A stretch of 64,000 bases of DNA from Microbacterium oleivorans (GTDB lineage Bacteria > Actinomycetota > Actinomycetes > Actinomycetales > Microbacteriaceae): NCBI RefSeq assembly GCF_001691565.1, contig NZ_MAYO01000003.1:806001-870000 (forward strand), given 5' to 3'. The first letter of the stretch is position 1. Every line of letters starts with the position of its first letter. The notes beneath the pieces were generated by a model. That model saw only the letters and a list, made by a program, of their open reading frames with translations. It ran no database searches and had not been told where the DNA came from. The translations under genes and the position numbers were made by a program. Positions 35,200 to 47,314 of this stretch are shown here, piece by piece.

Positions 35200-35496
35200 T
35201 CAGCGGACGACGACCGCGAGGACGTCGCGAGCCGAGAGCACGAGGAACTCGTCGGCGCCGAACTTGACCTCGGTGCCGCCGTACTTGCTGTACAGGACGC
35301 GGTCGCCGACGGCGACGTCGAGCGGAACGCGGTTGCCGTTGTCGTCGATGCGGCCGGGGCCGACAGCCACGACCTCGCCCTCCTGGGGCTTCTCCTTGGC
35401 GGTGTCAGGGATGACCAGGCCACTTGCGGTGGTCTGCTCGGCCTCGACCTGCTTGATGACGATGCGGTCCTCGAGCGGCTTGATGGAAACCGACAC
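35200..35496 (-). CDS. groES: Co-chaperonin GroES
   Basis: The 98-residue protein has the full GroES domain: [36 protein letters not shown], then [16 protein letters not shown]. It caps GroEL during folding. No groEL follows: the next gene is rarD and a terminator intervenes. Two CIRCE operators upstream indicate HrcA control. Confidence 0.98.
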
Positions 35497-35539: not shown

Positions 35540-35566
35540 TCAGCACTCGCTTACCGAGAGTGCTAA
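35540..35566 (-). promoter_or_regulatory. CIRCE operator 1 (HrcA site)
   Basis: The minus strand reads TTAGCACTC, 9 bases, GAGTGCTGA; only one position departs from the consensus. It lies just downstream of the groES -10. Confidence 0.92.
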
Positions 35567-35570
35567 CGAA

Positions 35571-35599
35571 AGTCTAGAGCGCGGTTGGCACTCATGCAA
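35571..35599 (-). promoter_or_regulatory. groES promoter
   Basis: The minus strand has TTGCAT, a 17-base spacer and TAGACT. The -35 overlaps CIRCE 2 and the start site falls at the edge of CIRCE 1, so HrcA bound at either would block RNA polymerase. Confidence 0.65.
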
Positions 35600-35611
35600 C
35601 GCGAGTGCCAA
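35585..35611 (-). promoter_or_regulatory. CIRCE operator 2 (HrcA site)
   Basis: TTGGCACTC, 9 bases, GAGTGCCAA: a perfect dyad with a symmetric substitution in each arm relative to the consensus. It overlaps the groES -35. Confidence 0.85.
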
Positions 35612-35640
35612 CAGTCGTCCCCGGCCACGAGACGCGGATC

Positions 35641-35681
35641 CCCTACCCCCTACCCACGCTCGCGCGCCCTATCCCCCTATC
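35641..35681 (+). promoter_or_regulatory. Candidate regulator-binding direct repeats upstream of the Hsp70-like gene
   Basis: CCCTACCCCCTACCC (35641-35655) and CCCTATCCCCCTATC (35667-35681) are spaced about 26 bases apart, near two helical turns and a half. They lie about 120 bases before the Hsp70-like start, in the 191-base gap after the groES control region. This could be a site for the LuxR regulator of this cluster; no experimental basis. Confidence 0.3.
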
Positions 35682-35802: not shown

Positions 35803-37050
35803 GTGTCGGATCGAGCACTACACGTCGCGGTCGACATCGGCGGCGACCGCGTCACAGCAGCCGCAGGGCGGCCGGACGCCGGGGAGCGTCCCGCGGTCAT
35901 CCGGCTCGGCCACAGCACCGACGCCGCCTCCTCAGCCGTCTTCATCAGTGACGACGGACCCATGTACGGCGACGCCGCGTCGCGTCGAGCGGCCGCCGCC
36001 CCCGACAAAGTCCTCCGCGACTACGCGGCTCGCATCGGAGACGAGGTCCCGCTGACGGTAGGACGTCAGGCGATCCGGGCGGAGGAGGCGTACGTCGGCG
36101 TCGTGCAATGGGCCGTCGGAGCCGCCTCGGACGCCGCCGCCGAGGCGCCCGACGGGATCACGGTCATCCTCCCCGCGGCGTGGGGAGACCACCGCCGGCG
36201 GAACCTTGCGGACGCACTCCGAGCACACGGCATCCTGGCGCACTTCATGACGACCCCCGAAGCCGTCGCCCACCATCGGATGCGCGCCCTGGGCCGTGAG
36301 CATGATCTCTTCGCGCTGTACGACCTGGGGGCGACCTCGTGCGATCTCGCGATCGTCATGGTCGAGGCGCGGACAGTCCGCGTGCTCGCCACCCGTTCGC
36401 TCGCTCACTTCGGCGGCGCGGACATCGACGACGCCGTGTTCGCCCACCTCCGGGAGATCGCACCCGCCCTGGACGACGCGGGATGGGTGGGCCTCGCCGC
36501 CGCACGCCGCGAGTGCACAGCCGCGAAGGAGGCGCTCTCCTTCGACACCGAGACGGTCCTCCCGATCGCCGTCCCCGCCGGCGAGCACCTCGTGCGGCTC
36601 GTCCGGGACGAACTCGAAGCACTCGTCGAGGAGGACGTCCGCGACAGCGTAGCCGCGCTAGAGGACCTGTGCGCCCGCGCGGGCGTGAGTCCGTCGGAGC
36701 TGCGGGGAGTCTCGCTCGCCGGCGGCGGTGCACGGATGCCGCGGGTCGCGCAGCTGGTGTCCGAAATCCTGGGGGTCGACGTCGACGAGGACGGCGACCC
36801 CCAGAGCCTCGCCGTCCGAGGGGCGGCCGGCTCACCCCTGCCCGCAGGAGAGCCGGACCTGTACGAGAGGGAGCCCCTTCCGGTGGAGCCGGTCCCGCCG
36901 CAGCCTCGCAGCGCCCTCGCGCGCGTGATGTCCGCGATGATGCGGGCGCTCCTTCCTCCTCCGCTCCCCGCAGAGACGGCGTCACCTGCTGCGTCGCCCA
37001 TCCCCGTGGCGACGGCCAGGTCTCGTCGCGACTCCCGAGCGGCGGTGTGA
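35803..37050 (+). CDS. ATPase-only Hsp70-like protein of the ini-like cluster
   Basis: I choose the GTG at 35803, which gives 415 residues; the frame is open upstream but non-conserved. Residues about 5-345 match the Hsp70/actin ATPase fold: phosphate-1 AVDIGGDRVTA (9-19), phosphate-2 YDLGATSCDLAIV (173-185), adenosine motif LAGGGARMPRV (305-315), and DPQSLAVRGAA (332-342), the Hsp70 DPxxAVxxGAA motif. The beta-sandwich substrate-binding domain is missing; residues 346-415 are Pro-rich with a short amphipathic segment (SALARVMSAMMRALLPP). It may act as a nucleotide-dependent switch rather than a foldase. The next gene starts 1 base after its stop. Confidence 0.85.
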   Translation: MSDRALHVAVDIGGDRVTAAAGRPDAGERPAVIRLGHSTDAASSAVFISDDGPMYGDAASRRAAAAPDKVLRDYAARIGDEVPLTVGRQAIRAEEAYVGVVQWAVGAASDAAAEAPDGITVILPAAWGDHRRRNLADALRAHGILAHFMTTPEAVAHHRMRALGREHDLFALYDLGATSCDLAIVMVEARTVRVLATRSLAHFGGADIDDAVFAHLREIAPALDDAGWVGLAAARRECTAAKEALSFDTETVLPIAVPAGEHLVRLVRDELEALVEEDVRDSVAALEDLCARAGVSPSELRGVSLAGGGARMPRVAQLVSEILGVDVDEDGDPQSLAVRGAAGSPLPAGEPDLYEREPLPVEPVPPQPRSALARVMSAMMRALLPPPLPAETASPAASPIPVATARSRRDSRAAV

Positions 37051-37051
37051 C

Positions 37052-39556
37052 GTGTACCAGGACGCGTGGCCGCACACGGGAGTCGCGCGCACGGCAGCAC
37101 CGGCGACGACGCGCATCCCGTCGCAGGTGCTCGCGACGGCCCTCGCGGAAACGGCGGTGACGCCGCTCCTGGCGGTGGACCTGCCGATCCGCGGGGTCGT
37201 GACGGGTCCGATCGGGTCGGGAAAGACGGCAGCGCTGGCCGCGTTGCGGGCGGAGGTGAACGAGCGCGGGATGCCGCTCGCCGGACGCCCGTCGCAGGTG
37301 ACGGACGGCGAGGTCCTCGTCGTCGACGACGCCGACGGCCTCGCGGAGGACGAACTCGCCTCGCTCCGCAGGGTCGTCGCGTCGGCGGAGGCCAGCGTCG
37401 TGATCTCACACCTGCCGCGGCCGCAGGGGCTGCTGCGCGAGATCATGGGGATCCTCGAGAAGTCCGCGCCTCCCGTACTCCTAGGAGACGTCGCACCCGA
37501 CCGCATCGTGGAGGCCACCCGCATCCCGCTCTCCTGCTCGACCGCGATCGTGGAGCAGACCGGAGGGCTCACCTGGCTGACGCTCGCCGCCGTGGACGCC
37601 CACGACCCGGGGACGTGCGGCGTCGATCCGACTCACCGCGCGCTGTGCGTCGCCCTCCGTGGGGCTGTCGCCCATCGGCTGGAGTGCCTCGACGAGCACC
37701 ACCGGGCGCTCCTCGAGGCGATGTGCGCACTCCCCGCATCGGAGCTCGCGTCGCAGGCGACGGGGACCGTCACCCTCGACGAGATGGTGACCGACGGATG
37801 CGCCGCCGGACTGCTCGCTCCGAACGGCGCGCCGCCGCCGATCGTCCGAGCCGCGGTCCGTGCTCTCACACCCGCGCACCGGGTCCCGGTGGACGCACGG
37901 CAGAGCGGGCGGGAGAGCGCGTGGCCGGGGGACGCGGCATCCACTCCGGCCTCGCTCGTCGCCCGAGGCGACCGCGTCCGTGCCGATTCCCCCGCTCACG
38001 CACTCGCGCTCTACCGTCAGGCGGCCTCCCTCACGGGGGACGAGGGGGACGTCGCCCTGGCCACCGGCATCGCCGCGGTCGGCGCCGGGGATCTGGATGC
38101 CGCCGGTGCCGCGTTCGACGTCCTCGTCCGGCTGCCGGCGCATCCTGATCACGCTGCCGCGTGCGACGCCTCGACGGCCGTCTGGGCGGCTCGCGGGCTC
38201 CTCGACGTCGGAGCCGGCTCCGGTTCCGACGCCGTCGGGACGCAGGATCCGGCGGCTCGTTCTCGGCGGGCTCTGGCCGCCGCGGGGAGGGGCACTCGGC
38301 CCGAGCCGGCGACGGCGCAGACGACCGAGGCGCCCGACACCCTCGCCGTCGCCTCCGCGGCACTGACGGCGGCTCTGTCCGCCTCGTTCTCGGACCAGGT
38401 CCTGGCGGCGGTGGACGACCTCGTCGTCGCGTCGGAGATGTACAGCGCGACGCACGACGACTTCCCGCTCGTGGAACCTCCCGCCGTGGTGGCGGCGGCT
38501 GCGGCGGTGTCGATCGGCCGACTCGACCTCGCGGCCGCGACGCTGGACTCGGCGCGCCGACGGCGGCAGGGCGGACCCGCGGCACGGTCGCGCCTCGCGC
38601 TCTGGCGCGCCTGGGTCGCGATCCACGCGGCTGATCCCGCCGCGGCATCCGCTCTCCTCAACGAGGCTGCGGCCTCCACCGCCGAGCCGACACCGCGCGA
38701 TCGGCTGATCCGAGCCGCCTGCGAGACAGCGCTCGCCCGGCGCTACGCGGGCACCGCCGAGCTGACCCTCGCATTCGACACGGCCGCGCGCGAGCTGCAC
38801 CAGCAGCACGTCGACCTCTTCCTGTTCCCGTTCCTCGGGGAGCTGTGCCTGGCGGCGGCGAGGGTGGACGACTCGGAAGCGGTCGACCGCCACGCGGATG
38901 CCGCCTTCGCGACGCTCGCGCAGGCAGGCGATCCTCCGCTGTGGAGTCCGCTCCTGCACTGGAGCGGCATCCAGCGCGGCATCATCGTGGGCCGACCCGA
39001 TGCGCTGACCCCCCATGCTCACGCCCTGGTCGGCGCAGCGGCCCACAGTCCCTTCGCGGCGCGGATGGCGACCGCCGGCCGGGTGTGGACGGACGTCCTG
39101 GCGGGCCGGGTCGATGCAGCGGCGGTGCAGTCCGCCGCCCGCGATCTCGCAGCCCACGGCCTCGCGTGGGACGGCGCCCGCCTCGCCGCGCACGGCGCAG
39201 CCCGCACCGAGGATCGATCCGCCTCGGCGCAACTGCTGGCCTGCGCTCGCGACCTGCACCCGATCCACAGCGCCCGTTCCGCTCACGCGACCGATGAACC
39301 GGATGAGCTGCCGCAACCCGGCTCGACCCTCAGCGCGCGCGAGTCGGACGTCGCGCGGCTCGTCCTGCAGGGCAAGACCTACATCGAGATCGGTCAATCG
39401 CTGTTCATCTCGCCGCGGACTGCCGAGCACCACATCGCACGCATACGTCGCCGGGTCGACGCAACCTCGCGCTCCGATCTGCTCACGAAGCTCCGGGCGA
39501 TGCTCGGCGACGACGCAGGAACCAGGACCACCAGTCACACCCGGGAGGGCACATGA
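37052..39556 (+). CDS. AAA/LuxR-type regulator (IniR/MalT-like)
   Basis: The 834-residue protein has a P-loop (GPIGSGKT, residues 52-59), Walker B VLVVDDAD (88-95), and a long helical TPR-like middle (about 330-740). A C-terminal LuxR helix-turn-helix (residues 758-813, LSARESDVARLVLQGKTYIE then FISPRTAEHHIARIRRR) completes it. This is the plan of STAND/LAL regulators such as MalT and mycobacterial IniR, which activates iniBAC. It has a GTG start 1 base after the Hsp70-like stop, and its stop overlaps the IniB-like ATG. The ligand is unknown; position suggests it controls both operons of the cluster. Confidence 0.82.
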   Translation: MYQDAWPHTGVARTAAPATTRIPSQVLATALAETAVTPLLAVDLPIRGVVTGPIGSGKTAALAALRAEVNERGMPLAGRPSQVTDGEVLVVDDADGLAEDELASLRRVVASAEASVVISHLPRPQGLLREIMGILEKSAPPVLLGDVAPDRIVEATRIPLSCSTAIVEQTGGLTWLTLAAVDAHDPGTCGVDPTHRALCVALRGAVAHRLECLDEHHRALLEAMCALPASELASQATGTVTLDEMVTDGCAAGLLAPNGAPPPIVRAAVRALTPAHRVPVDARQSGRESAWPGDAASTPASLVARGDRVRADSPAHALALYRQAASLTGDEGDVALATGIAAVGAGDLDAAGAAFDVLVRLPAHPDHAAACDASTAVWAARGLLDVGAGSGSDAVGTQDPAARSRRALAAAGRGTRPEPATAQTTEAPDTLAVASAALTAALSASFSDQVLAAVDDLVVASEMYSATHDDFPLVEPPAVVAAAAAVSIGRLDLAAATLDSARRRRQGGPAARSRLALWRAWVAIHAADPAAASALLNEAAASTAEPTPRDRLIRAACETALARRYAGTAELTLAFDTAARELHQQHVDLFLFPFLGELCLAAARVDDSEAVDRHADAAFATLAQAGDPPLWSPLLHWSGIQRGIIVGRPDALTPHAHALVGAAAHSPFAARMATAGRVWTDVLAGRVDAAAVQSAARDLAAHGLAWDGARLAAHGAARTEDRSASAQLLACARDLHPIHSARSAHATDEPDELPQPGSTLSARESDVARLVLQGKTYIEIGQSLFISPRTAEHHIARIRRRVDATSRSDLLTKLRAMLGDDAGTRTTSHTREGT

Positions 39557-40452
39557 GTAACGTGATCGCGACGATGGCGAATGCGCTGATCGAATTCATC
39601 CTGAGTCTCATTCGAGACCCCGACGTAGCCTCCGAGTTCGAGGCGGACCCGGAGGGCGCCCTCGCCGCCCGCGGCCTGGGCAACGTCGGGTACAACGATC
39701 TCTGCGCGGCACTGCCTGTCGTCTACGACAACCCCCAGGTCCTCGTCCACAACGAGCCCGGTCTTCTCCTGCGTCCACCCGCCGATCCCGGTGGCGTGTC
39801 CCCCACTCAGGTGGTGCAGCAGCTCCACGAACTCATCACGAACACCTCGTACGTCACGAACAACTCGACCGTGCTCGACCAGTCGGTGAACCAGAACCTC
39901 TGGGCTGAAGGCGACATCCTGCAGATCTTCGACAACGAGGCGATCGTCGCGAGCGGCCAGGGCTCGACCGCCGCCGGTCGCGACGTCGTCGATGACGACA
40001 GCACCGATGCGTCCACCACCGTCACCGTCGGTGGCGATGCCGTCGTCGACAGCACCGTCGACACCGACACCGCGGTCGGCTCGAACAACGACACGACGGT
40101 GACGGGGCCCGTGCCGGACAGCTCGGCACCCGCGACGGGCGGGGACACGACCCCGGCCGGACCGTCGCCGGCAGAGGATGCCGCGAGCGGCGACGACGTG
40201 GCCGATCAGCCCGCCGACGTGTCCGCACCGCAGGATGCCATGACCACCGACCAGACCACGGTGGAACCGACCGCGGGGCCGGAGCCGGTCGAGGACGCGG
40301 CACCGCCCGCGGAGGATCAACCCGTCGCGGACGAGCCGATGACCCTGACCCCGGTCGACGACGGTCCCGACCCGTACGCCACCGCGGACGACAGCACCGC
40401 GCTGTCCGAACCGGTCGCTTTCGACGAACCGACGACGGACTCGGAGTACTGA
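39553..40452 (+). CDS. IniB N-terminal domain protein
   Basis: The 299-residue acidic protein starts with an IniB-type N-terminal domain: ALIEFILSLIRDPDVASEFE (11-30), then ADPEGALAARGLGNVGYNDL and CAALPVV. Residues 104-173 are a module (STVLDQSVNQNLWAEGD, VASGQGSTAAGRD, VGGDAVVDSTV) that also occurs in the Asp-Asn-Ser repeat protein at 44599-45915. The rest (about 180-299) is disordered and rich in Asp, Pro, Thr and Ala. It has no signal peptide or membrane segment. In mycobacteria IniB is encoded with IniA and IniC and is induced by cell-wall inhibitors; its biochemical role is unclear. A GGGAGGG site precedes the ATG. Confidence 0.82.
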   Translation: MSNVIATMANALIEFILSLIRDPDVASEFEADPEGALAARGLGNVGYNDLCAALPVVYDNPQVLVHNEPGLLLRPPADPGGVSPTQVVQQLHELITNTSYVTNNSTVLDQSVNQNLWAEGDILQIFDNEAIVASGQGSTAAGRDVVDDDSTDASTTVTVGGDAVVDSTVDTDTAVGSNNDTTVTGPVPDSSAPATGGDTTPAGPSPAEDAASGDDVADQPADVSAPQDAMTTDQTTVEPTAGPEPVEDAAPPAEDQPVADEPMTLTPVDDGPDPYATADDSTALSEPVAFDEPTTDSEY

Positions 40453-40458
40453 CCGCCG

Positions 40459-41094
40459 ATGACCAGCCCCCAGACGGGCTCGCAGAGCCCGTCCCTCTCC
40501 CCCAGCCCGTCCGGTCCGCTGCGGACCGGACGGGCGCAACCCGCGCGACCGTCGGTGCACGCACCGAACTCGGCGCCCGTCATCGCCCACGTGGCCCCGC
40601 CCCTGTCATCGCGCCTCGCAGAGGCGTTCTGGAGCTTCGGTCTGGCCGCGGGCGCACTGGCGGCGGGCTACTTCTTCATCACGCGTACCGATGAACTGGC
40701 GCACATCAAGAAGCGCGTCGAGGCGGTCGACCCGGACCGGGCGGCCGAGAGCGTCGACACGACGGTGGACATCCTGTTCTGGGTGCTCTTCGGCACCTTC
40801 CTGACGTTGCTGCTCATCCAGGTGTGGGCGGCGGTCGCCTTCGCGAACCGTCGCTCCGGGGCGCGCGCGTGGCTATGCGGAACGCTGGTCGCCTTCGGCG
40901 TGCTGAGCGTCGTCGCGCTGGAGTTCACCCGCCCGGGGAACGACGGGATGCCGCTGCGGACGTTCGCGCTCGCGTATGCCGGCATCCTCATTCTCGCGCT
41001 GCTCGCGTCGCTCCTGCCCGCCTCCAGAGCCTGGACCCGCCGCCGTTTCGACGTCCGCCGCGGCCCCGCCTCGGTGGGCGGCGGCGACCTCTGA
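40459..41094 (+). CDS. Small multi-pass membrane protein of the ini-like cluster
   Basis: The 211-residue protein has a Ser/Pro-rich N-terminal region of about 50 residues, then about four membrane segments (AFWSFGLAAGALAAGYFFIT, VDILFWVLFGTFLTLLLIQV, WLCGTLVAFGVLSVVALEFT, and ALAYAGILILALLASLLPAS). A basic tail (WTRRRFDVRR) follows. The charged loop between segments 1 and 2 (HIKKRVEAVDPDRAAESVD) is probably exposed. I do not recognise a family. It is the last gene of the plus-strand operon, 6 bases after the IniB-like stop. It may anchor the cytoplasmic partners at the membrane. Its last 222 bases overlap the convergent IniC-like ORF. Confidence 0.75.
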   Translation: MTSPQTGSQSPSLSPSPSGPLRTGRAQPARPSVHAPNSAPVIAHVAPPLSSRLAEAFWSFGLAAGALAAGYFFITRTDELAHIKKRVEAVDPDRAAESVDTTVDILFWVLFGTFLTLLLIQVWAAVAFANRRSGARAWLCGTLVAFGVLSVVALEFTRPGNDGMPLRTFALAYAGILILALLASLLPASRAWTRRRFDVRRGPASVGGGDL

Positions 41095-42549
41095 CAGGAT
41101 CCCGTCGAGGGTCCGCACGGCGATCGAGCAGGCGCGGACGGCGCTGCGCGGTGTGTCCGGCCGCTCGCCGATCCGCCGCCACGTGTCCCGTAGCGCCGCA
41201 GCGAGGTCGGCGACCTCGCCGCGGGAGGCGTCCGGGCGCGCTCCGACCCGATCGGCGGGGTCGGTGCCGTCGGCACCGAGGATCCGCTCGAGCTCGTCGG
41301 TTTCGGCCGGGGTCACGCCGGCGCCGGACACGCGGATGGCCGCGAGGAGGTCGAGTTCGCGCAGCTCGTGCGATCCGTCGACCAGCGCGTCGAGCGCAGC
41401 GCGCAGCGCGTCGTCCTGCCCCGTTCGCGGCCGCTCGCGGAGGAGGTCGTCGAGGAAGGTCTTCAGCGCGCGGACCTTCAGCGCGGCGGTGCGGCCTGCG
41501 AACTGCCGGCGCACGGTGGAGCGCAGCTCCTCCAACCCGCTCTGGACGACGAGCTGTTCGGCGAGACGCTGCGACGTGGTGGCACCCCCTCGGACGAGCG
41601 CGACGCCGAGACGGATGCCGGTGATGCCGAAGCGGTCGATGAGGCCCCGACGCGCGCGAGACCCCAGGGTCGCCGCTCCCTCACGGACGAACCGATCAGC
41701 AGAGAGCAGCAGACGGTCGCGCTGATCGCGGTCCCAGCCGGCGATCTCACGGAGCGCCATGAAGTCGCGCTCCGCCATGCAGCGTGCGCTCTCGGCGATG
41801 AGTCCGGCGACCGGCATGACACCGATCGCCAGCGGCCGCATCTCGGGGAGCTCTCGGTACCGCGCCGCGATCCCGCGCGCGGACAGCAGGGCGTCCAGTC
41901 GCCCCCCGCCCACCTCGTCGGCGCGGGACAGGACGGCGAGCGCGTTGACGCTGTTGCCCGGCCCGCTGTCGACGTCGCGGAAGGCGGAGAGGAACGACAG
42001 ATCGGAGGGGTGCAGGTGGCGCAGCAGATAGACGATGGCGTCGGCGTCGGACGGGCCGCCCGTCGCTGGCGTCAGGAAGGTCAGGCTGCGATCGGCGATG
42101 CGCGCCGAGACCGATTCGATGCCGGGGGTGTCGATCAGCACGAGGGAGCGGAGACTCAGCGCGGGCCATCTGATGTCGATGTGGTCGATCTCGTCGGGGT
42201 CGATCCCGCGGAGATCGAGCCGCAGCCGCCCGTCGGTGCGTGCGAGCGAGAGCGACGAGGTGCGACCGCTGCGGTGGACGGCGTCGACGCGCGGCGTCGC
42301 TCCGTAGCGGTACCAGGTCACGATGCGGGTGCACTCCCCCGCATCGGTGGGGGCGATCCGCTCGCCGATGAGGGCATTGAGCAACGTCGACTTGCCGGCT
42401 TTGACCATGCCCGCGATCCCGAGGCGAAGCGGCTCCTGCAGTCGGGTGCGCCACGCCTGCAGGTCCGCGACCGTGGTGGTGTCGTCCTGATACAGCGCGA
42501 GGGCGTCATCGAGGAGCGCGTCGGCGGCTGCCAGGATGCCGACGCTCAC
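40873..42549 (-). CDS. Dynamin-like GTPase (IniC-like)
   Basis: The 558-residue protein has a GTPase domain with G1 GMVKAGKS (47-54), G3 DTPGIES (140-146) and a G4-like SRAD (208-211) in place of N/TKxD, as in several bacterial dynamins. The C-terminal half is helical. Residues 1-485 look conserved and are close to mycobacterial IniC in length. The last 73 residues are Gly/Arg/Glu-rich and are encoded opposite the membrane-protein gene, so they may be non-functional read-through. The GTG start overlaps the IniA-like stop (GTGA), so the pair is translationally coupled and probably acts as a heteromer, as tandem bacterial dynamins do. Confidence 0.85.
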   Translation of the reverse strand: MSVGILAAADALLDDALALYQDDTTTVADLQAWRTRLQEPLRLGIAGMVKAGKSTLLNALIGERIAPTDAGECTRIVTWYRYGATPRVDAVHRSGRTSSLSLARTDGRLRLDLRGIDPDEIDHIDIRWPALSLRSLVLIDTPGIESVSARIADRSLTFLTPATGGPSDADAIVYLLRHLHPSDLSFLSAFRDVDSGPGNSVNALAVLSRADEVGGGRLDALLSARGIAARYRELPEMRPLAIGVMPVAGLIAESARCMAERDFMALREIAGWDRDQRDRLLLSADRFVREGAATLGSRARRGLIDRFGITGIRLGVALVRGGATTSQRLAEQLVVQSGLEELRSTVRRQFAGRTAALKVRALKTFLDDLLRERPRTGQDDALRAALDALVDGSHELRELDLLAAIRVSGAGVTPAETDELERILGADGTDPADRVGARPDASRGEVADLAAALRDTWRRIGERPDTPRSAVRACSIAVRTLDGILSEVAAAHRGGAAADVETAAGPGSGGGQERREQRENEDAGIRERERPQRHPVVPRAGELQRDDAQHAEGDQRSA

Positions 42550-44429
42550 ACGATCCCCCGCTGCGCCGGTACCGTCGCGACCGCGTCGGCGGCCTCCGGC
42601 GTCGCTGCCACGGCCGCGGGCAACGCGGTCCTCACCCGCGCCAGGTACTGCAGACGCTTCGTCAGCTCGGCGATGCGCGCGTCGCGGTCCTGGGCGAAGC
42701 CTGCGGCGGGCTTGCGTGCCGCCTCGGCGGCGGCGGTGAGCGACCGGTGGATCTCGTCGGCCCGAGTTCCGAAGTGATCACGCGTCGCTCGCTGGATGGA
42801 GCGGAGTCTGTCGCGCAGCTGCTTGCCGACTTGGAAGGCGATCTCGTCGATGTACCGGCGGACCAGGTTCTTCGCCTCGTTCTGCCGTCGCGACAGCCGT
42901 GCCTGCGTGTCCTCGCGGTAGGCCCGACGCCCGACCAGGACGCCGGCGAGCAGCGACAGCGGGTTCAGCACCGCGAGCCCGATGACGCTCGTCGCGAGGC
43001 CGACCATGAGCACGCCCCCGTACGAGCCGCGCACACCGATGTAGATCTTCTCCCCCGCTGAGAGGGTCGGGGCGTCGAGCTCCGCCATCTCGTCGACCGG
43101 GTCGAGGACGCCGGTGATGTCGCCGACGTCGAGCTGCGGGATGTCCTCCTCGCCCTCGAGGAACTGCCCGGCGACCTCCTGTGCCAGCCACCGCTGACGG
43201 TCGTTGGTCCAGATGAACGTGTCGGCGACGGCCTCGCCGACGCGTTCGTCCAGCCACTGCGCGAACTCGCCCCAGACCGGTCCGGGATCGCCGGCTTCGA
43301 TGGCCTCCTCCGCCTGCCGCTGCACGCGGCGGAGGCGATCGCGGAGGTCGTGCTCGGTGTCGGCGATGAGGTCGGCTACCCCGTCGGTGAGTGTCGTCTG
43401 CCAGCGCGACGAGCGGCTGCGGAACTCCTCGGCCTGCCGCTTGGCGTCCTCGAGCCGCTCGATGATCTCCGGGGTGCGTTCCGGGTGCTGCAGAGCGGTC
43501 AACTCGGACCGGACGGCGATCGCGAGCTGCTCCACGACGTCGTGCAGGTCGGCCGCGGCGGCTCGGCGTTCGAGCTCGCCGGCGCGGTGCAGGACCTCGC
43601 TGTGGAGGTGCTGGATGAGTCGGGGGAATCCCGATTCCTCGTTCAGCTCGCGGTCCTGGCGGGCGGCCGCGGCGAGACGCAGGTCGCTCGAGACGGGGAA
43701 GACCGGGATCGGCCCGACGCTCTCGAGATGACGCTCGTCGATCCCGGCGATCTGACGCCACTGCGGGTACGCGTCGGTCTTGGTCACCACCGCCGACACG
43801 TGCGGCGACACCCGCACCGCCTGCGACAGCAGACGGATCTCGGGCGCCGTGTACTCCTGCGAGGCATCCGACACCATCAGCATGGCGTGCGCACCGGACA
43901 GCGCCGTGAGGGCGGAGAGCGCTCGGAACGCCTGCACGTCGCCGATTCCCGGGGAGTCGACGAGCCGCAGCCCGTTCTGGAGGATCTTGCGCGGCACCAG
44001 GATCTCGGCCCCGACGACCTCGCCGCCTTCGAATCGCGGCGCTTCGGCGGCGATGTACTGCCCCACATCGTCGATCGGCACCTCGTGTCGGGTGAGGTCC
44101 GGCGAAGAGGGATGCCGCACGAGGACGGCGGCGGAGGGTGAGTCACCGTATCCGACCACCGTCGGGATGCGCGTCGCGATGTCGTCGTCGACGGGGCAGA
44201 CCGGGGCCCCGACGATCGCATTGATCAGCTTGCTCTTGCCTTGCTTGTACTCCCCGACGACGAGGACCCGGACATACGGGTCGATCAACCGCGCCCGGCT
44301 CGCCGTCAACCGGTCGGCGAGATCTTCCCGCCCCCATTCGCGACTCGTCTTCCTGATCTCGTCCGCTACGCGCACGAGCGCGCCGGGAGTCTCTCCCAGC
44401 GCGCCCTGCTCCCCCACCGATTGCGGCAT
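42546..44429 (-). CDS. Dynamin-like GTPase (IniA-like)
   Basis: I choose the ATG at 44429 after GAGGGG (627 residues). The GTPase domain has G1 GEYKQGKS (59-66), G3 DSPGIGD (158-164) and G4 TKTD (216-219). A long helical region (about 275-440, coiled-coil-like ERLEDAKRQAEEFRSRSSRW) follows. A hydrophobic hairpin GVLMVGLATSVIGLAVLNPL and SLLAGVLVG (about 480-512) probably inserts into the membrane, and helices complete the stalk. This matches mycobacterial IniA, a bacterial dynamin able to deform or cut membranes. It has its own candidate promoter. Confidence 0.9.
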   Translation of the reverse strand: MPQSVGEQGALGETPGALVRVADEIRKTSREWGREDLADRLTASRARLIDPYVRVLVVGEYKQGKSKLINAIVGAPVCPVDDDIATRIPTVVGYGDSPSAAVLVRHPSSPDLTRHEVPIDDVGQYIAAEAPRFEGGEVVGAEILVPRKILQNGLRLVDSPGIGDVQAFRALSALTALSGAHAMLMVSDASQEYTAPEIRLLSQAVRVSPHVSAVVTKTDAYPQWRQIAGIDERHLESVGPIPVFPVSSDLRLAAAARQDRELNEESGFPRLIQHLHSEVLHRAGELERRAAAADLHDVVEQLAIAVRSELTALQHPERTPEIIERLEDAKRQAEEFRSRSSRWQTTLTDGVADLIADTEHDLRDRLRRVQRQAEEAIEAGDPGPVWGEFAQWLDERVGEAVADTFIWTNDRQRWLAQEVAGQFLEGEEDIPQLDVGDITGVLDPVDEMAELDAPTLSAGEKIYIGVRGSYGGVLMVGLATSVIGLAVLNPLSLLAGVLVGRRAYREDTQARLSRRQNEAKNLVRRYIDEIAFQVGKQLRDRLRSIQRATRDHFGTRADEIHRSLTAAAEAARKPAAGFAQDRDARIAELTKRLQYLARVRTALPAAVAATPEAADAVATVPAQRGIV

Positions 44430-44449
44430 GTGTGTCCCCTCGCATCCAC

Positions 44450-44542
44450 GTCGTTGCGGATACTCCCCCAGCGGCACCGTACCGACTCCCCGTCATGCCG
44501 ACAAGGGATGCCGGCGGAAGGCGCTCCTGCATCCGCAACGAC
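44450..44542 (-). promoter_or_regulatory. 12-bp inverted repeats flanking the IniA-like promoter
   Basis: GTCGTTGCGGAT at 44450-44461 and its exact complement ATCCGCAACGAC at 44531-44542 are separated by 69 bases. They bracket the promoter at 44476-44504. The arms could be two half-sites for a looping regulator. Confidence 0.6.
44476..44504 (-). promoter_or_regulatory. Candidate promoter of the dynamin pair
   Basis: The minus strand has TTGTCG, a 17-base spacer and TACGGT, 47 bases before the IniA-like ATG and inside the flanking inverted repeats. Confidence 0.55.
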
Positions 44543-44551
44543 ATGATTGGC

Positions 44552-44586
44552 TCTCGTCCCGCACCCGAGTCGGGTGCGGGACGAGA
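44552..44586. terminator. Large hairpin between the repeat-protein gene and the dynamin pair
   Basis: A 35-base perfect palindrome (TCTCGTCCCGCACCCGA, G, complement) lies 12 bases after the repeat-protein stop. No T-run follows on the minus strand, so it may act as a partial terminator or RNA-stabilising hairpin that sets the ratio between the genes. Confidence 0.6.
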
Positions 44587-44598
44587 CGTGGTCGTGAC

Positions 44599-45915
44599 TC
44601 AGAACGCGGTGTCCGCGTCGGCGTCCGGGACCTCGACGTTCATACCGCCGTCATCCGCGACGGAGTTGTCGTCACCCGTCGTCCAGATGTTCGTCGAGTC
44701 ATCGTCCGTCCACGTGGTGGTGGGCGAGAATTCGGCATTGAACTGCTCGTTCATCGAGTCGGAGATCGAGGTGTTGATCTGACTCATGTCCGTCAGGGAC
44801 TCGTCGACGTTGAACGAGTCCGAGATCGACACGTTCGTGTTGATCGAGTTGTCGGAGTTGTCCATCCAGTCGGTCGAGTTGTCGGAGTTGTCCGAGTTGT
44901 CGGAGTTGTCCGCCCAGTTGCTCGTGTTCGCCGAATCCGTCCAGGTGTTCGTGTTGATGGTGCTGCCGATCACGGCGTCACCACCCACGTCGTAGTTCAC
45001 CGAGTTGTCGACGGAGTTGTCCCACCAGGCGTCGCCGCCCGCCGCGACGGAGCCGTCGCCGCTGGCCACGTGGGCCGAGGAGCCGGATCCGATCGTGACG
45101 TCGCCGCCGGCACTGATGTTGCCGTTGACGGACTGGTCGACGTTCGTGGAGTTGAACGACACGTTGCCCGAGACGCTGCCGAGGCCGGCTGCGGGAGCGG
45201 CGCCGCCGTCCCCGAAGGTGGTGTTGTACTGCCGCACGCCGACGTTGTACTGGTCCCAGTCGATGTGCTGGTTGTACGAGTTCTCGTTGCCGGAGTTGGT
45301 GTTCGAGTTGTCGGAGCTGTCGTTGTACGAGTCGTTGACCGAGTTGTTCGAGTTGTCGGAGCTGTCGGAGTTGTCCGAGTTGTCGTTGTTCGAGTCGGTC
45401 CAGCTGTTGCCCGAGTCGTTCGTCGAGTTGTCGGAGTTGTCGCTGTTGTCCGAGTTGTCGCTGTTGTCGTTCACCGAGTTGTCCGAGTTGTCGCTGTTGT
45501 CCGAGTTGTCGCTGTTGTCGGAGTTGTCGGAGTTGTCGGTCCACGAGTTGTCGTTGTTCGAGTCGTTCGTGGAGTTGTCCGAGTCATCGGAGTTGTCGTT
45601 GTACGAGTCGTTCGTGGAGTTGTCCGAGTTGTCGTTCTCGGAGTCGGTCTTCGAGCTGTCCGACGAGTTGTCGCTGTTGTCGGAGTTGTCCGAGTTGTCG
45701 GAGTTGTCCGAGTTGTCGCTGTTGTCCGAGTTGTCGGTGTCGGTCGAGTTGTCGTTGCCGGAGTCCGTCGTCGACGCGTCGGTGGTGACGCTGTTGTCGG
45801 AGTTGTCGGTGTTCCCGGAGTCGTTGACGCTGTTGTCGGAGTCGTCGTTCGTCGAGTTGTCGTTGTAGGAGTCGGTCGCCTCAGCAACGGCGCTGAGGAA
45901 GTTGTTGTCGGCCAC
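44599..45915 (-). CDS. Asp-Asn-Ser repeat protein sharing a module with the IniB-like protein
   Basis: The 438-residue protein starts with GTG after GAGAGGAC. Residues about 15-215 are dominated by tandem Asp-Asn-Ser triplets with variants (STNDS, SWTD, SYNDN). Residues 255-324 are a module gaplessly alignable with residues 104-173 of the IniB-like protein (37/70 identities; STNVDQSVNGNISAGGD, VASGDGSVAAGGD, VGGDAVIGSTI). More SDN triplets and a polar tail follow. There is almost no Lys, Arg or hydrophobic core, and no signal peptide or IniB N-terminal domain. It is probably a disordered or beta-solenoid scaffold. It is the first gene of the minus-strand operon. Confidence 0.8.
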   Translation of the reverse strand: MADNNFLSAVAEATDSYNDNSTNDDSDNSVNDSGNTDNSDNSVTTDASTTDSGNDNSTDTDNSDNSDNSDNSDNSDNSDNSDNSSDSSKTDSENDNSDNSTNDSYNDNSDDSDNSTNDSNNDNSWTDNSDNSDNSDNSDNSDNSDNSVNDNSDNSDNSDNSDNSTNDSGNSWTDSNNDNSDNSDSSDNSNNSVNDSYNDSSDNSNTNSGNENSYNQHIDWDQYNVGVRQYNTTFGDGGAAPAAGLGSVSGNVSFNSTNVDQSVNGNISAGGDVTIGSGSSAHVASGDGSVAAGGDAWWDNSVDNSVNYDVGGDAVIGSTINTNTWTDSANTSNWADNSDNSDNSDNSTDWMDNSDNSINTNVSISDSFNVDESLTDMSQINTSISDSMNEQFNAEFSPTTTWTDDDSTNIWTTGDDNSVADDGGMNVEVPDADADTAF

Positions 45916-46102
45916 GGGTGAGTCCTCTCATCTGGCGCATGTCGCGCTCGTTGCGACGAGTCTCGTTCGCGAGGCGAATCGAGGCATCGGGGGAAATCCC
46001 CCCACTCGGCATGCGTTCCCCGGGGTACTCGGGGAACCCCACCGCCCGGGGAGGGGGATCCGTGGCCGCACGTCCGATGCCGACGGGGGATGCCGCGGAA
46101 AC
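45916..46102 (-). promoter_or_regulatory. Control region of the repeat-protein gene with palindromes
   Basis: This gap contains the imperfect palindrome GTTCCCCGGGGTACTCGGGGAAC (46014-46036, described on the plus strand) with 8-base arms, and the motif GGGGGAAATCCCCC at 45991-46004. Both are candidate operator sites. No consensus promoter is clear. Confidence 0.35.
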
Positions 46103-46114: not shown

Positions 46115-47314
46115 ATGGAACAGGCCGAGCTCACCGCCCTGCTGACCGCGGAGGGCCTTCGCATGGTCGACGAGGTGGGCCCCCTCGCGTCGACGGCGGA
46201 GGTCGCCGGCGCGGTGTCGCGTTTGCGGGCCGCGGGGCACTCCCCCGATCTCGTGTCGGCTGTCGTGGGGCAGGCCCACCTCCGCGTGCGGGCTGTCGCG
46301 AAGTTCGGCCCGTTCGCAGACCGCATGCTCTTCACCCGAGCGGGCCTCGAGCAGGCGACACGACTCGAGGTCGCTGCGCGTCACGCCGGGCGGTTCCGGG
46401 ATGCCGGGGTGCAGCGCGTCGCGGACCTCGGCTGCGGCATCGGGGGTGACGCACTCGGCATGGCGGGTCTGGGGCTCGACGTCCTCGCCGTCGACGCCGA
46501 CGAGACCACCGCTGCCCTCGCGGCCTACAACCTCGCACCGTTCGGCGAGGCGGTCACCGTCCGGAGCGGCCTCGCCGAGGAGACGGACCTCGACGGCTGG
46601 GACGCCGTGTGGCTCGACCCGGCGCGCCGCACCGCGGGCCACTCCGAGACCTCCCGCACCCGTCCGGAGGACTGGTCTCCCTCACTGGATTGGGCCTTCG
46701 CCCTCGCCGAGCGGACGCCGGTGGGCATCAAGCTCGGACCGGGACTCGATCGCGACCTCATCCCCGAGGGCGTCGAGGCGCAGTGGGTCAGCGTCGACGG
46801 TTCGACCGTCGAACTCGTGCTCTGGTCAGGTTCACTGCGACGCGAGGGCGTCCGCCGCGCGGCGCTCGTCATCCGCGGCGGTTCCGCGGCGGAGCTCACG
46901 GCCCCGGCGGACTCGCCCGACGAGCCGGTGCGAGAGCTCGGCGCCTTCCTCCACGAACCCGAGGGGGCCGTCATCCGCGCGCGTCTGATCGGCGAGGTCG
47001 CCCGCGGGCTGGAGGCGGGGATGCTCGCTGACGGGATCGCCTACCTGACGTCGGATGCCGCGGTGACGAACCCGTTCGTGCAGTCGTTCCGCGTGCGCGA
47101 GGTCCTGCCGGTCAAGGTGCCTGCGATCAACGCCGCCTTGCAGGCGAGGGGGATCGGAACGATCGAGATCAAGAAGCGCGGGGTCGATGTGGACCCGGCG
47201 CAGTTCCGGCGCAAGCTCGCGCTGCGTGGCGATGCGGCTGCGACGCTGGTCCTCACGCGCCTGGGCGAGGGGCCGAAGGCGAAGCGGGTCGCCGTGCTCG
47301 CCGAGCGCGTCTGA
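46115..47314 (+). CDS. Class I SAM methyltransferase with THUMP-like C-terminal domain
   Basis: The 399-residue protein has a helical N-terminus (1-75), a Rossmann methyltransferase domain with SAM motif VADLGCGIGGDALGMAGLGL followed by VLAVDADE (about 108-132), the catalytic-type motif DAVWLDPARRTAG, and a C-terminal THUMP-like domain (about 310-395; GIGTIEIKKRGVDVDPAQFR). The architecture suggests RNA methylation, but the target is unknown. It converges with the DUF4190 gene, with one base between stops. Confidence 0.85.
   Translation: MEQAELTALLTAEGLRMVDEVGPLASTAEVAGAVSRLRAAGHSPDLVSAVVGQAHLRVRAVAKFGPFADRMLFTRAGLEQATRLEVAARHAGRFRDAGVQRVADLGCGIGGDALGMAGLGLDVLAVDADETTAALAAYNLAPFGEAVTVRSGLAEETDLDGWDAVWLDPARRTAGHSETSRTRPEDWSPSLDWAFALAERTPVGIKLGPGLDRDLIPEGVEAQWVSVDGSTVELVLWSGSLRREGVRRAALVIRGGSAAELTAPADSPDEPVRELGAFLHEPEGAVIRARLIGEVARGLEAGMLADGIAYLTSDAAVTNPFVQSFRVREVLPVKVPAINAALQARGIGTIEIKKRGVDVDPAQFRRKLALRGDAAATLVLTRLGEGPKAKRVAVLAERV

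Follow-up and report, generated by a model that had tools for sequence, protein, structure and literature searches.

Analysis of a 64,000-nt stretch of the Microbacterium oleivorans genome (hereafter the window) revealed a convergent operon pair at positions 35803–45915, which encodes two dynamin-like GTPases related to mycobacterial IniA and IniC together with an Hsp70-like protein, an IniR-like regulator, an IniB-like protein, a small membrane protein and an Asp/Asn/Ser-repeat protein (Table 1). All seven genes are open frames where an initial annotation of this DNA had placed them, and codon-usage gene calling agrees with its start for the Hsp70-like gene. The plus-strand operon runs in the order Hsp70-like, IniR-like, IniB-like and membrane protein, with spacings of 1 or 6 bases or a 4-base overlap: the IniR-like gene begins one base past the Hsp70 stop codon, and the end of iniR overlaps the IniB-like gene by 4 bases. 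On the minus strand, the repeat-protein gene is followed by adjacent iniA and iniC, which also overlap by 4 bases. The 3′ end of iniC is antisense to the end of the membrane-protein gene over 222 bp (40873–41094); the IniC frame that extends to 40873 has the same length in locus L141 (Microbacterium sp. EYE_78), the sister of the window locus, and is shorter in many relatives.

Table 1. Genes and candidate control elements of the locus and its flanks, in window positions
Feature	Position	Strand	Evidence
Hsp70-like protein, 415 aa, nucleotide-binding domain (NBD) and short tail	35803–37050	+	PF00012 1.5e-21; codon-usage start
IniR-like AAA/LuxR regulator, 834 aa	37052–39556	+	NF038181 2.1e-83; GerE 4.4e-12
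IniB-like protein, 299 aa, net charge −51	39553–40452	+	NF038175 4.3e-17
70-aa module within IniB-like protein	39862–40071	+	BLASTP match to repeat protein
Small multi-pass membrane protein, 211 aa, 3–4 transmembrane segments	40459–41094	+	Transmembrane prediction
IniC-like dynamin, 558 aa	40873–42549	−	Dynamin_N 3.1e-12; IniC clade
IniA-like dynamin, 643 aa (623 aa if start 44417)	42546–44477	−	6j72 4.5e-131; IniA clade
Asp/Asn/Ser-repeat protein, 438 aa, net charge −91	44599–45915	−	S/N/D ~62% of residues; tandem repeats
70-aa module copy in repeat protein, residues 255–324	44944–45153	−	BLASTP versus IniB-like protein
Three CCCCTA boxes ahead of the Hsp70-iniR-iniB operon, candidate IniR-type operator	35640–35679	+	
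Candidate operator GGGGGGATTTCCCCCGATG, upstream of repeat-protein/dynamin operon	45985–46003	−	
Two CIRCE-like inverted repeats, probably of divergent groES	35542–35611		
groES, flanking the cluster	35203–35496	Divergent from Hsp70 gene	Named by recognition
Methyltransferase gene, flanking the cluster past the repeat protein, with tsaD region	46115–47311		Named by recognition

Ini-type proteins of the convergent operons

Profile searches detected Dynamin_N in both GTPases, at 4.1e-20 in the IniA-like protein and 3.1e-12 in the IniC-like one. The IniA-like protein aligns over residues 32–616 to the solved IniA 6j72, which we take to be the structure of the M. smegmatis IniA paper, and its 623-aa form has a hydrophobic segment at 478–496; the IniC-like protein aligns to 6j72 in the GTPase domain only. 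The IniA of locus L107 reaches 1194 bits against the same structure. We placed both proteins in a tree of 79 dynamins (32 IniA-type, 32 IniC-type and 15 single dynamins found by searching the phylum), which was built with a quick method and has several long branches. All 32 IniA sequences lie on one side of a branch with support 90 and all 32 IniC sequences on one side of a branch with support 99. Both clades take in the Mycobacterium-type IniA and IniC, and the 15 other dynamins stay apart. The window proteins group with Microbacterium sequences first and then with those of other Micrococcales, in agreement with the initial assignment as Ini-type GTPases. Because both GTPases group with IniA and IniC and the genes recur together, as described below, an Ini-type system in the window is well supported by sequence comparison. 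Neither outcome that would have contradicted the initial annotation, rare co-occurrence of the genes or grouping of the GTPases with non-Ini dynamins, was seen.

PADLOC profiles of Leo systems also match the two dynamins (LeoBC 2.1e-12, LeoA 5.5e-10), and the cluster forms a present-or-absent cassette between groES and the methyltransferase gene with a patchy distribution in the genus. Both observations would fit a Leo-like dynamin anti-phage defence or a contact-dependent system instead of an envelope-stress function. However, IniA 6j72 is a far better match at 4.5e-131, the tree keeps the dynamins with IniA and IniC, and the remaining five proteins gave a single PADLOC match, a weak hit on the DNA-binding end of IniR; moreover, to our knowledge Leo systems have no place for an IniB domain or an IniR-like regulator. 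We regard a defence function as very improbable.

The AAA/LuxR regulator predicted initially was recovered by NF038181 and GerE. Its 281 bits compare with an NF038181 equivalog cut-off of 750, so that by this standard it is a family member, not an equivalog. A second IniR-like gene is found elsewhere in the same genome (L271:8506–10956; G000:C3 near 1777182); the surrounding 19.5 kb gave no dynamin or Hsp70 match, and relatives of this gene occur in L272 and L273, whose genomes lack IniA.

The N-terminal domain of the IniB-like protein, also part of the initial annotation, passes the NF038175 cut-off (61.8 bits; cut-off 40). It is predicted to be helical (helices 8–58), and residues 11–60 of the AF2 model m57f168efcd76 form a block with pLDDT >90. 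AF2 models of the repeat protein and of the IniB body are of low confidence, with an overall pLDDT of 60 for IniB and 39 for the repeat protein, and speak neither for nor against a beta-solenoid, the fold expected for these parts. When the domain model (39574–39726) was compared with the PDB, the best Foldseek E was 2.4; the best VIA match was the leader of SonA, from a borosin system (rmsd 1.0 over 37 residues, Z 4.8), a weak lead. As their description as module-sharing partners implies, the IniB-like and repeat proteins have a 70-aa module in common (53% identity, E 6e-13 by BLASTP). Sequence resembling the module recurs in relatives, and repeat proteins that carry it and are encoded by a separate gene are seen in the Microbacterium-type layout. 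The IniB N-terminal domain was not matched in the repeat protein, which gave no Pfam or NCBIfam match up to E 1.

The membrane protein has three transmembrane (TM) segments under strict prediction settings, to which relaxed settings add a fourth; it matches no Pfam or NCBIfam family above its cut-off, and its L141 counterpart is 94% identical across 190 aa. Searches with the window sequence detected it in 35 of 81 loci, none of which is among the 40 class-level ones, counts that come from sequence search, as the gene caller drops genes overlapping iniC. A profile of the protein gave one weak class-level match (L106:12288–12908, 3e-8). This relative sits just past iniC in convergent orientation; its genome belongs to the class-level set and lies outside the order.

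An Hsp70-like gene linked to IniA–IniC pairs

DnaK structures match the Hsp70-like protein of the window down to 1.1e-17. The PF00012 match covers the 599-position profile only as far as position 369, the protein ends shortly after the NBD, and the substrate-binding domain and lid were not matched; in five relatives checked with Pfam, the best Hsp70 stretch likewise ends at 373–374 of 599, before the substrate-binding part. A search for a TM segment after the NBD found none in the window protein, whereas 99 of 123 complete non-DnaK Hsp70s have one, a lower bound at the threshold of 1.6, since seven further proteins score 1.45–1.59. Tails with at least 30% Pro+Thr are found in 98 of the 123, with 3/17 in the mixed class-level group, and two relatives carry a beta-propeller after the NBD (L121:5045–7501 and L135:13974–16487; Vgb_lyase 4.3e-20; PQQ_2 3.4e-40). 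The NBD-only form in the window is thus a derived, shortened state of a mostly membrane-anchored family.

In an alignment to DnaK, DIGGDR replaces DLGTTN in phosphate 1, Thr replaces the equivalent of Glu171, and GATS replaces GGGT in phosphate 2; the adenosine motif is retained. L141 shows the same DIGGDR, Thr and GATS. Our survey of the Hsp70 family is restricted to the counts for tails, TM segments and phosphate 2, those for phosphate 1 being unreliable because the choice of start codon truncated many N-termini. An unaltered phosphate 2 is seen in 25/40 proteins of the Microbacterium layout, 42/46 of other Micrococcales, 13/17 of the other class-level loci and 1/19 of Mycobacterium type. 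The initial description as an ATPase-only Hsp70 stands in so far as an NBD without a substrate-binding domain is present; the architecture is derived, and the altered motifs make the label ATPase doubtful for the window copy. Comparison of the window with L141 gave a dN/dS of 0.145 for the Hsp70 gene, in line with its cluster neighbours (IniA 0.102, IniC 0.140, IniR 0.184, IniB 0.204), indicating that the gene is under purifying selection although the anchor and part of the ATP site are lost.

Co-occurrence of these genes, which the initial annotation had named as a point to check, is seen repeatedly. IniA was detected in 34 of the 119 genomes of the genus set, in 18/249 family-level and in 56/394 class-level genomes. 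All 34 IniA genomes of the genus also have IniR, which is otherwise present in 2/85 (G015 and G056), and all 34 have an Hsp70 match of at least 177 bits, a per-genome count for which adjacency to iniA was not checked throughout and which in four fragmented genomes comes from another contig. Among the 85 genomes without IniA, G073 has an Hsp70 match of 136 bits and the rest have at most 112 bits (DnaK level) or none.

For gene order we compared 80 neighbourhoods from the genus-to-class matches (a subset) and the best 80 of 528 named loci from a contig scan; some genomes occur in more than one locus set, and at 92% IniA identity 140 of 161 loci are distinct. Hsp70, IniR and IniC were found in 18, 19 and 21 of the 22 genus loci, in 14 each of the 16 family loci, in both order loci, in 30, 22 and 37 of the 40 class loci, and in 68, 73 and 79 of the 80 named loci. 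The genes thus recur together far above chance. A non-DnaK Hsp70 accompanies 133 of 154 IniA–IniC pairs (class level, 30/37). The 21 pairs without it include several on short contigs (e.g., L149, L166 and L176), L069, where the Hsp70 lies ~19 kb away on the same contig, and L190, where it is read into the iniR frame. For the latter 1359-aa frame an Hsp70-IniR fusion was considered; a frameshift is likelier, because the junction passes from the Pro/Thr tail to a foreign-looking stretch before iniR.

To place these pairs among other dynamins, we sought Dynamin_N in a phylum sample of 119 genomes, of which 26 matched, and retrieved 20 neighbourhoods (10.8–19.5 kb) from 19 genomes. An Hsp70-like gene is present in 5/5 IniA–IniC loci (4 genomes, one with two loci) and in 0/15 loci with a single dynamin match, indicating that in this sample it accompanies the Ini-type pair and not dynamins at large.

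In 116 of the 125 loci that have both genes, the Hsp70 gene lies directly 5′ of a co-oriented iniR, once with a 1.5-kb gap and mostly with short gaps, or in 100 of 108 once near-copies are removed; several Mycobacterium-type loci share this order, and it is absent in nine loci, including L102–L105, L110 and L121. This arrangement could mean that the Hsp70-like protein chiefly senses the envelope on behalf of IniR, with a tail that crosses the wall, a TM segment that relays the signal and an NBD that holds or frees IniR, and that the dynamins are only the output. The TM segments, the Pro/Thr-rich tails and the two beta-propellers are consistent with such a role, and the altered ATP motifs would fit a binding switch. 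On the other hand, the window protein is conserved without a TM segment, and Hsp70 also accompanies dynamin pairs that have no iniR in the stretch: 8 of 23 such pairs carry it (L122, L124, L126, L133–L136 and L138), although the L126 Hsp70 is at a contig end, so that iniR may be cut off there. L251 is a further example, and seven pairs on 14–20 kb have neither gene. In addition, a GrpE-domain gene lies by the dynamin pair in L133, L134, L135 and L137 and farther away in L138 (E from 7.7e-12 to 9e-6, the latter lying at the cut-off), and the L133–L138 pairs branch outside the remaining IniA and IniC in the tree. Since Hsp70 occurs in 8/23 pairs without IniR and GrpE-domain genes stand with the outlying pairs, we narrowly favour a role of the Hsp70-like protein as assembly partner of the dynamins, and consider the sensor role possible but rather doubtful. 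The GrpE-domain genes near these outlying pairs, most of which have an Hsp70, perhaps reflect an older Hsp70-GrpE-dynamin arrangement.

The flanks of the cluster point to a single site at which it occurs. Of 12 sampled genus genomes that lack IniA, 11 have groES and the methyltransferase gene side by side in divergent orientation, ~150–200 bp apart; in the twelfth (L277) ~1.2 kb separates them. Because the two genes adjoin in these 11 genomes, the cluster is a cassette that is present or absent at one site (empty-site polymorphism), through either loss or transfer. G015 lacks IniA and has a methyltransferase 94% identical to that of the window. The labels groES, methyltransferase and tsaD were assigned by recognition.

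Candidate IniR operators

A search for sigma-70 promoters found none. In a k-mer comparison of promoter regions, TCCCCTAA occurs in 24/193 dynamin-side, 18/118 Hsp70 and 12/98 iniR-iniB regions, compared with 5/674 other intergenic regions, or 1/599 once the 75 regions overlapping cluster promoters are removed. The shorter core CCCCTA[ACT] is enriched to different degrees in different groups of loci. Other Micrococcales have it mainly between iniR and iniB (45/49; Hsp70 11/46, dynamin-side 2/54; control 11/256), and Mycobacterium-type loci in dynamin-side (20/33), Hsp70 (13/18) and iniR-iniB (2/2) regions (control 2/42). For the Microbacterium layout the counts are 15/42 iniR-iniB, 19/82 dynamin-side and 6/38 Hsp70 (control 3/143), and for the remaining loci 6/15 Hsp70, 6/22 dynamin-side and 1/5 iniR-iniB (control 8/156). 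The window carries it three times in the Hsp70 region and lacks it in both dynamin-side regions.

Because the data used to pick the motif were also those in which it was counted, a whole-genome test carries more weight. The tandem TCCCCTAA-N0-10-CCCCTAA has 16 matches in 17 genomes, 15 of them inside ini stretches, compared with one for the reversed control; the matches are confined to 10/11 Mycobacterium-type genomes, with none in the remaining six. The sole match outside ini stretches is at G121:C1:1107507.

A second form, a G-run followed after a short gap by CC(C/G)GATG, is present in 28/49 iniR-iniB gaps of other Micrococcales (control 0/256) and in 3/84 dynamin-side and 3/42 iniR-iniB regions of the Microbacterium layout (control 1/145). 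CCC(C/G)GATGC is found in 23/84 and 19/42 of the latter regions, with a higher background (11/145). The CCCCTA and G-run forms co-occur in many Micrococcaceae iniB promoters, where a layout like that of the 45985–46003 element stands upstream of iniB. Each of the two window promoters has one of the two forms. The site at 35640–35679 contains two overlapping tandem matches and is unique in the 64 kb (chance mean 0.01), as is GGGGGGATTTCCCCCGATG at 45985–46003 (chance mean 0.00), both patterns having been picked after the sites were seen.

We therefore propose the CCCC-core boxes as candidate IniR operators, to which IniR would bind. A ChIP peak of M. tuberculosis IniR is reported to lie ahead of iniBAC. 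No IniR box motif was found in the literature searched, whose coverage leaves out most subscription papers.

A proposed envelope-stress machine and its known relatives

Our observations on gene content, orthology, co-inheritance, protein architecture and cis-element enrichment, read by analogy with the mycobacterial IniR and IniA papers, make it fairly probable that the locus encodes a dynamin pair that IniR controls and envelope stress induces, and that an Hsp70-like protein is its dedicated partner. Wall or membrane stress would activate the IniR-family ATPase/LuxR regulator, which would turn on both operons via CCCC-core operators. The products would include the small membrane protein and the IniA–IniC pair, which would remodel, that is, cut or repair, the cytoplasmic membrane, with the very acidic IniB-family proteins as possible cytoplasmic partners or scaffold. 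The Hsp70-like protein may work with the dynamin/IniB machine in nucleotide-dependent control of assembly, or in reporting wall damage, rather than in client folding. In most relatives it would be tethered in the membrane, with the tail, often Pro/Thr-rich, predicted outside.

Several findings weigh against this proposal. The window Hsp70 lacks a TM segment and its ATP motifs are changed, as is phosphate 2 in 18/19 Mycobacterium-type Hsp70s; any role that requires ATP hydrolysis is therefore weakened. Seven class-level pairs (L128–L132, L137 and L139) have no Hsp70 in 14–20 kb, so that the partner is usual, not universal, and 85/119 genomes of the genus lack the system altogether. IniR scores below the NCBI equivalog cut-off, and trehalose sensing cannot be taken for granted outside mycobacteria. 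Exact TCCCCTAA is rare in Microbacterium loci (1/38 Hsp70 and 2/82 dynamin-side regions), and the tandem form was not found in the window's genome. Finally, a composite operator TAGGGGG-N3-7-CCCGATGCC was rejected for unsupported specificity, since its only match, which lies in the ini cluster of G393, compares with 4 for the control in a scan of 61 Micrococcaceae genomes, most of them not checked for an ini cluster.

A different output would be stress-induced vesicle release, in which the dynamin pair pinches off extracellular vesicles and the acidic IniB-type proteins serve as cargo or scaffold. IniA is reported to serve vesicle release in mycobacteria. Papers on mycobacterial vesicles mention IniA alongside dynamin-like proteins, and the M. 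smegmatis IniA paper describes, besides the structure, GTP-hydrolysis-dependent membrane fission in vitro. However, the first 40 residues of IniB and of the repeat protein look unlike a secretion signal by eye, and fission for repair and fission for release cannot be separated by sequence. We consider vesicle release unlikely.

More broadly, and tentatively, the locus may represent a widespread actinobacterial Hsp70-dynamin machine, in which the usual partner of IniA–IniC, a membrane-anchored Hsp70-like protein that lacks a substrate-binding domain and carries an external tail or beta-propeller, couples wall damage to dynamin assembly under CCCC-core operators. If so, mycobacterial iniBAC would be one branch of this machine, in which the Hsp70 has been overlooked as sensor or assembly factor, and the link of an Hsp70-family protein to dynamins would have a bacterial example. 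The comparison singles out this partner, which is membrane-tethered in most relatives, together with concrete candidate operators. In mycobacteria, iniBAC and its activation by IniR are already known, as is a dnaK-like gene adjoining iniR in M. smegmatis (PMC5760070). The literature searched showed neither a general link of Hsp70 with dynamins nor the TM architecture of this Hsp70, the operator or module-sharing repeat proteins.

Like other paired bacterial dynamin-like proteins, including Leo proteins, the window dynamins are encoded side by side; according to PMC6104087, dynamin genes of bacteria mostly come in pairs. They differ in that IniA and IniC form their own clades and that, in the phylum sample, the Hsp70-like gene occurs only with such pairs. 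The L133–L138 pairs are accompanied by a GrpE-domain protein and/or Hsp70, the Hsp70-like gene being present in L133–L136 and L138, not in L137; in contrast to the window, no iniR was found there, and GrpE-domain genes stand by the pairs listed above. With Hsp70/DnaK chaperones the window protein shares the NBD, and it differs in the unmatched substrate-binding domain and the changed key ATP-site residues; most of its cluster relatives differ by one TM segment plus tail, and two by a beta-propeller.

The closest known system is mycobacterial iniR-iniB*-iniB-iniA-iniC. The regulator family, the IniB N-terminal domain and adjacent IniA and IniC in A-C order are common to both, and many Mycobacterium-type loci have an Hsp70-like gene beside iniR, as in the window. 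The initial annotation saw the Hsp70-like, membrane and repeat proteins as extensions of the mycobacterial system. This is only partly borne out, for the membrane protein and for the separate repeat protein of the Microbacterium-type layout, whereas the Hsp70 is more widely distributed, in Mycobacterium-type loci, the class and the phylum. Thus, in contrast to the mycobacterial locus, the window has two convergent operons, a different, Asp-rich IniB body, an extra module-sharing repeat protein, an added four-TM protein, an Hsp70 without a TM segment, and operator variants rather than plain TCCCCTAA tandems.

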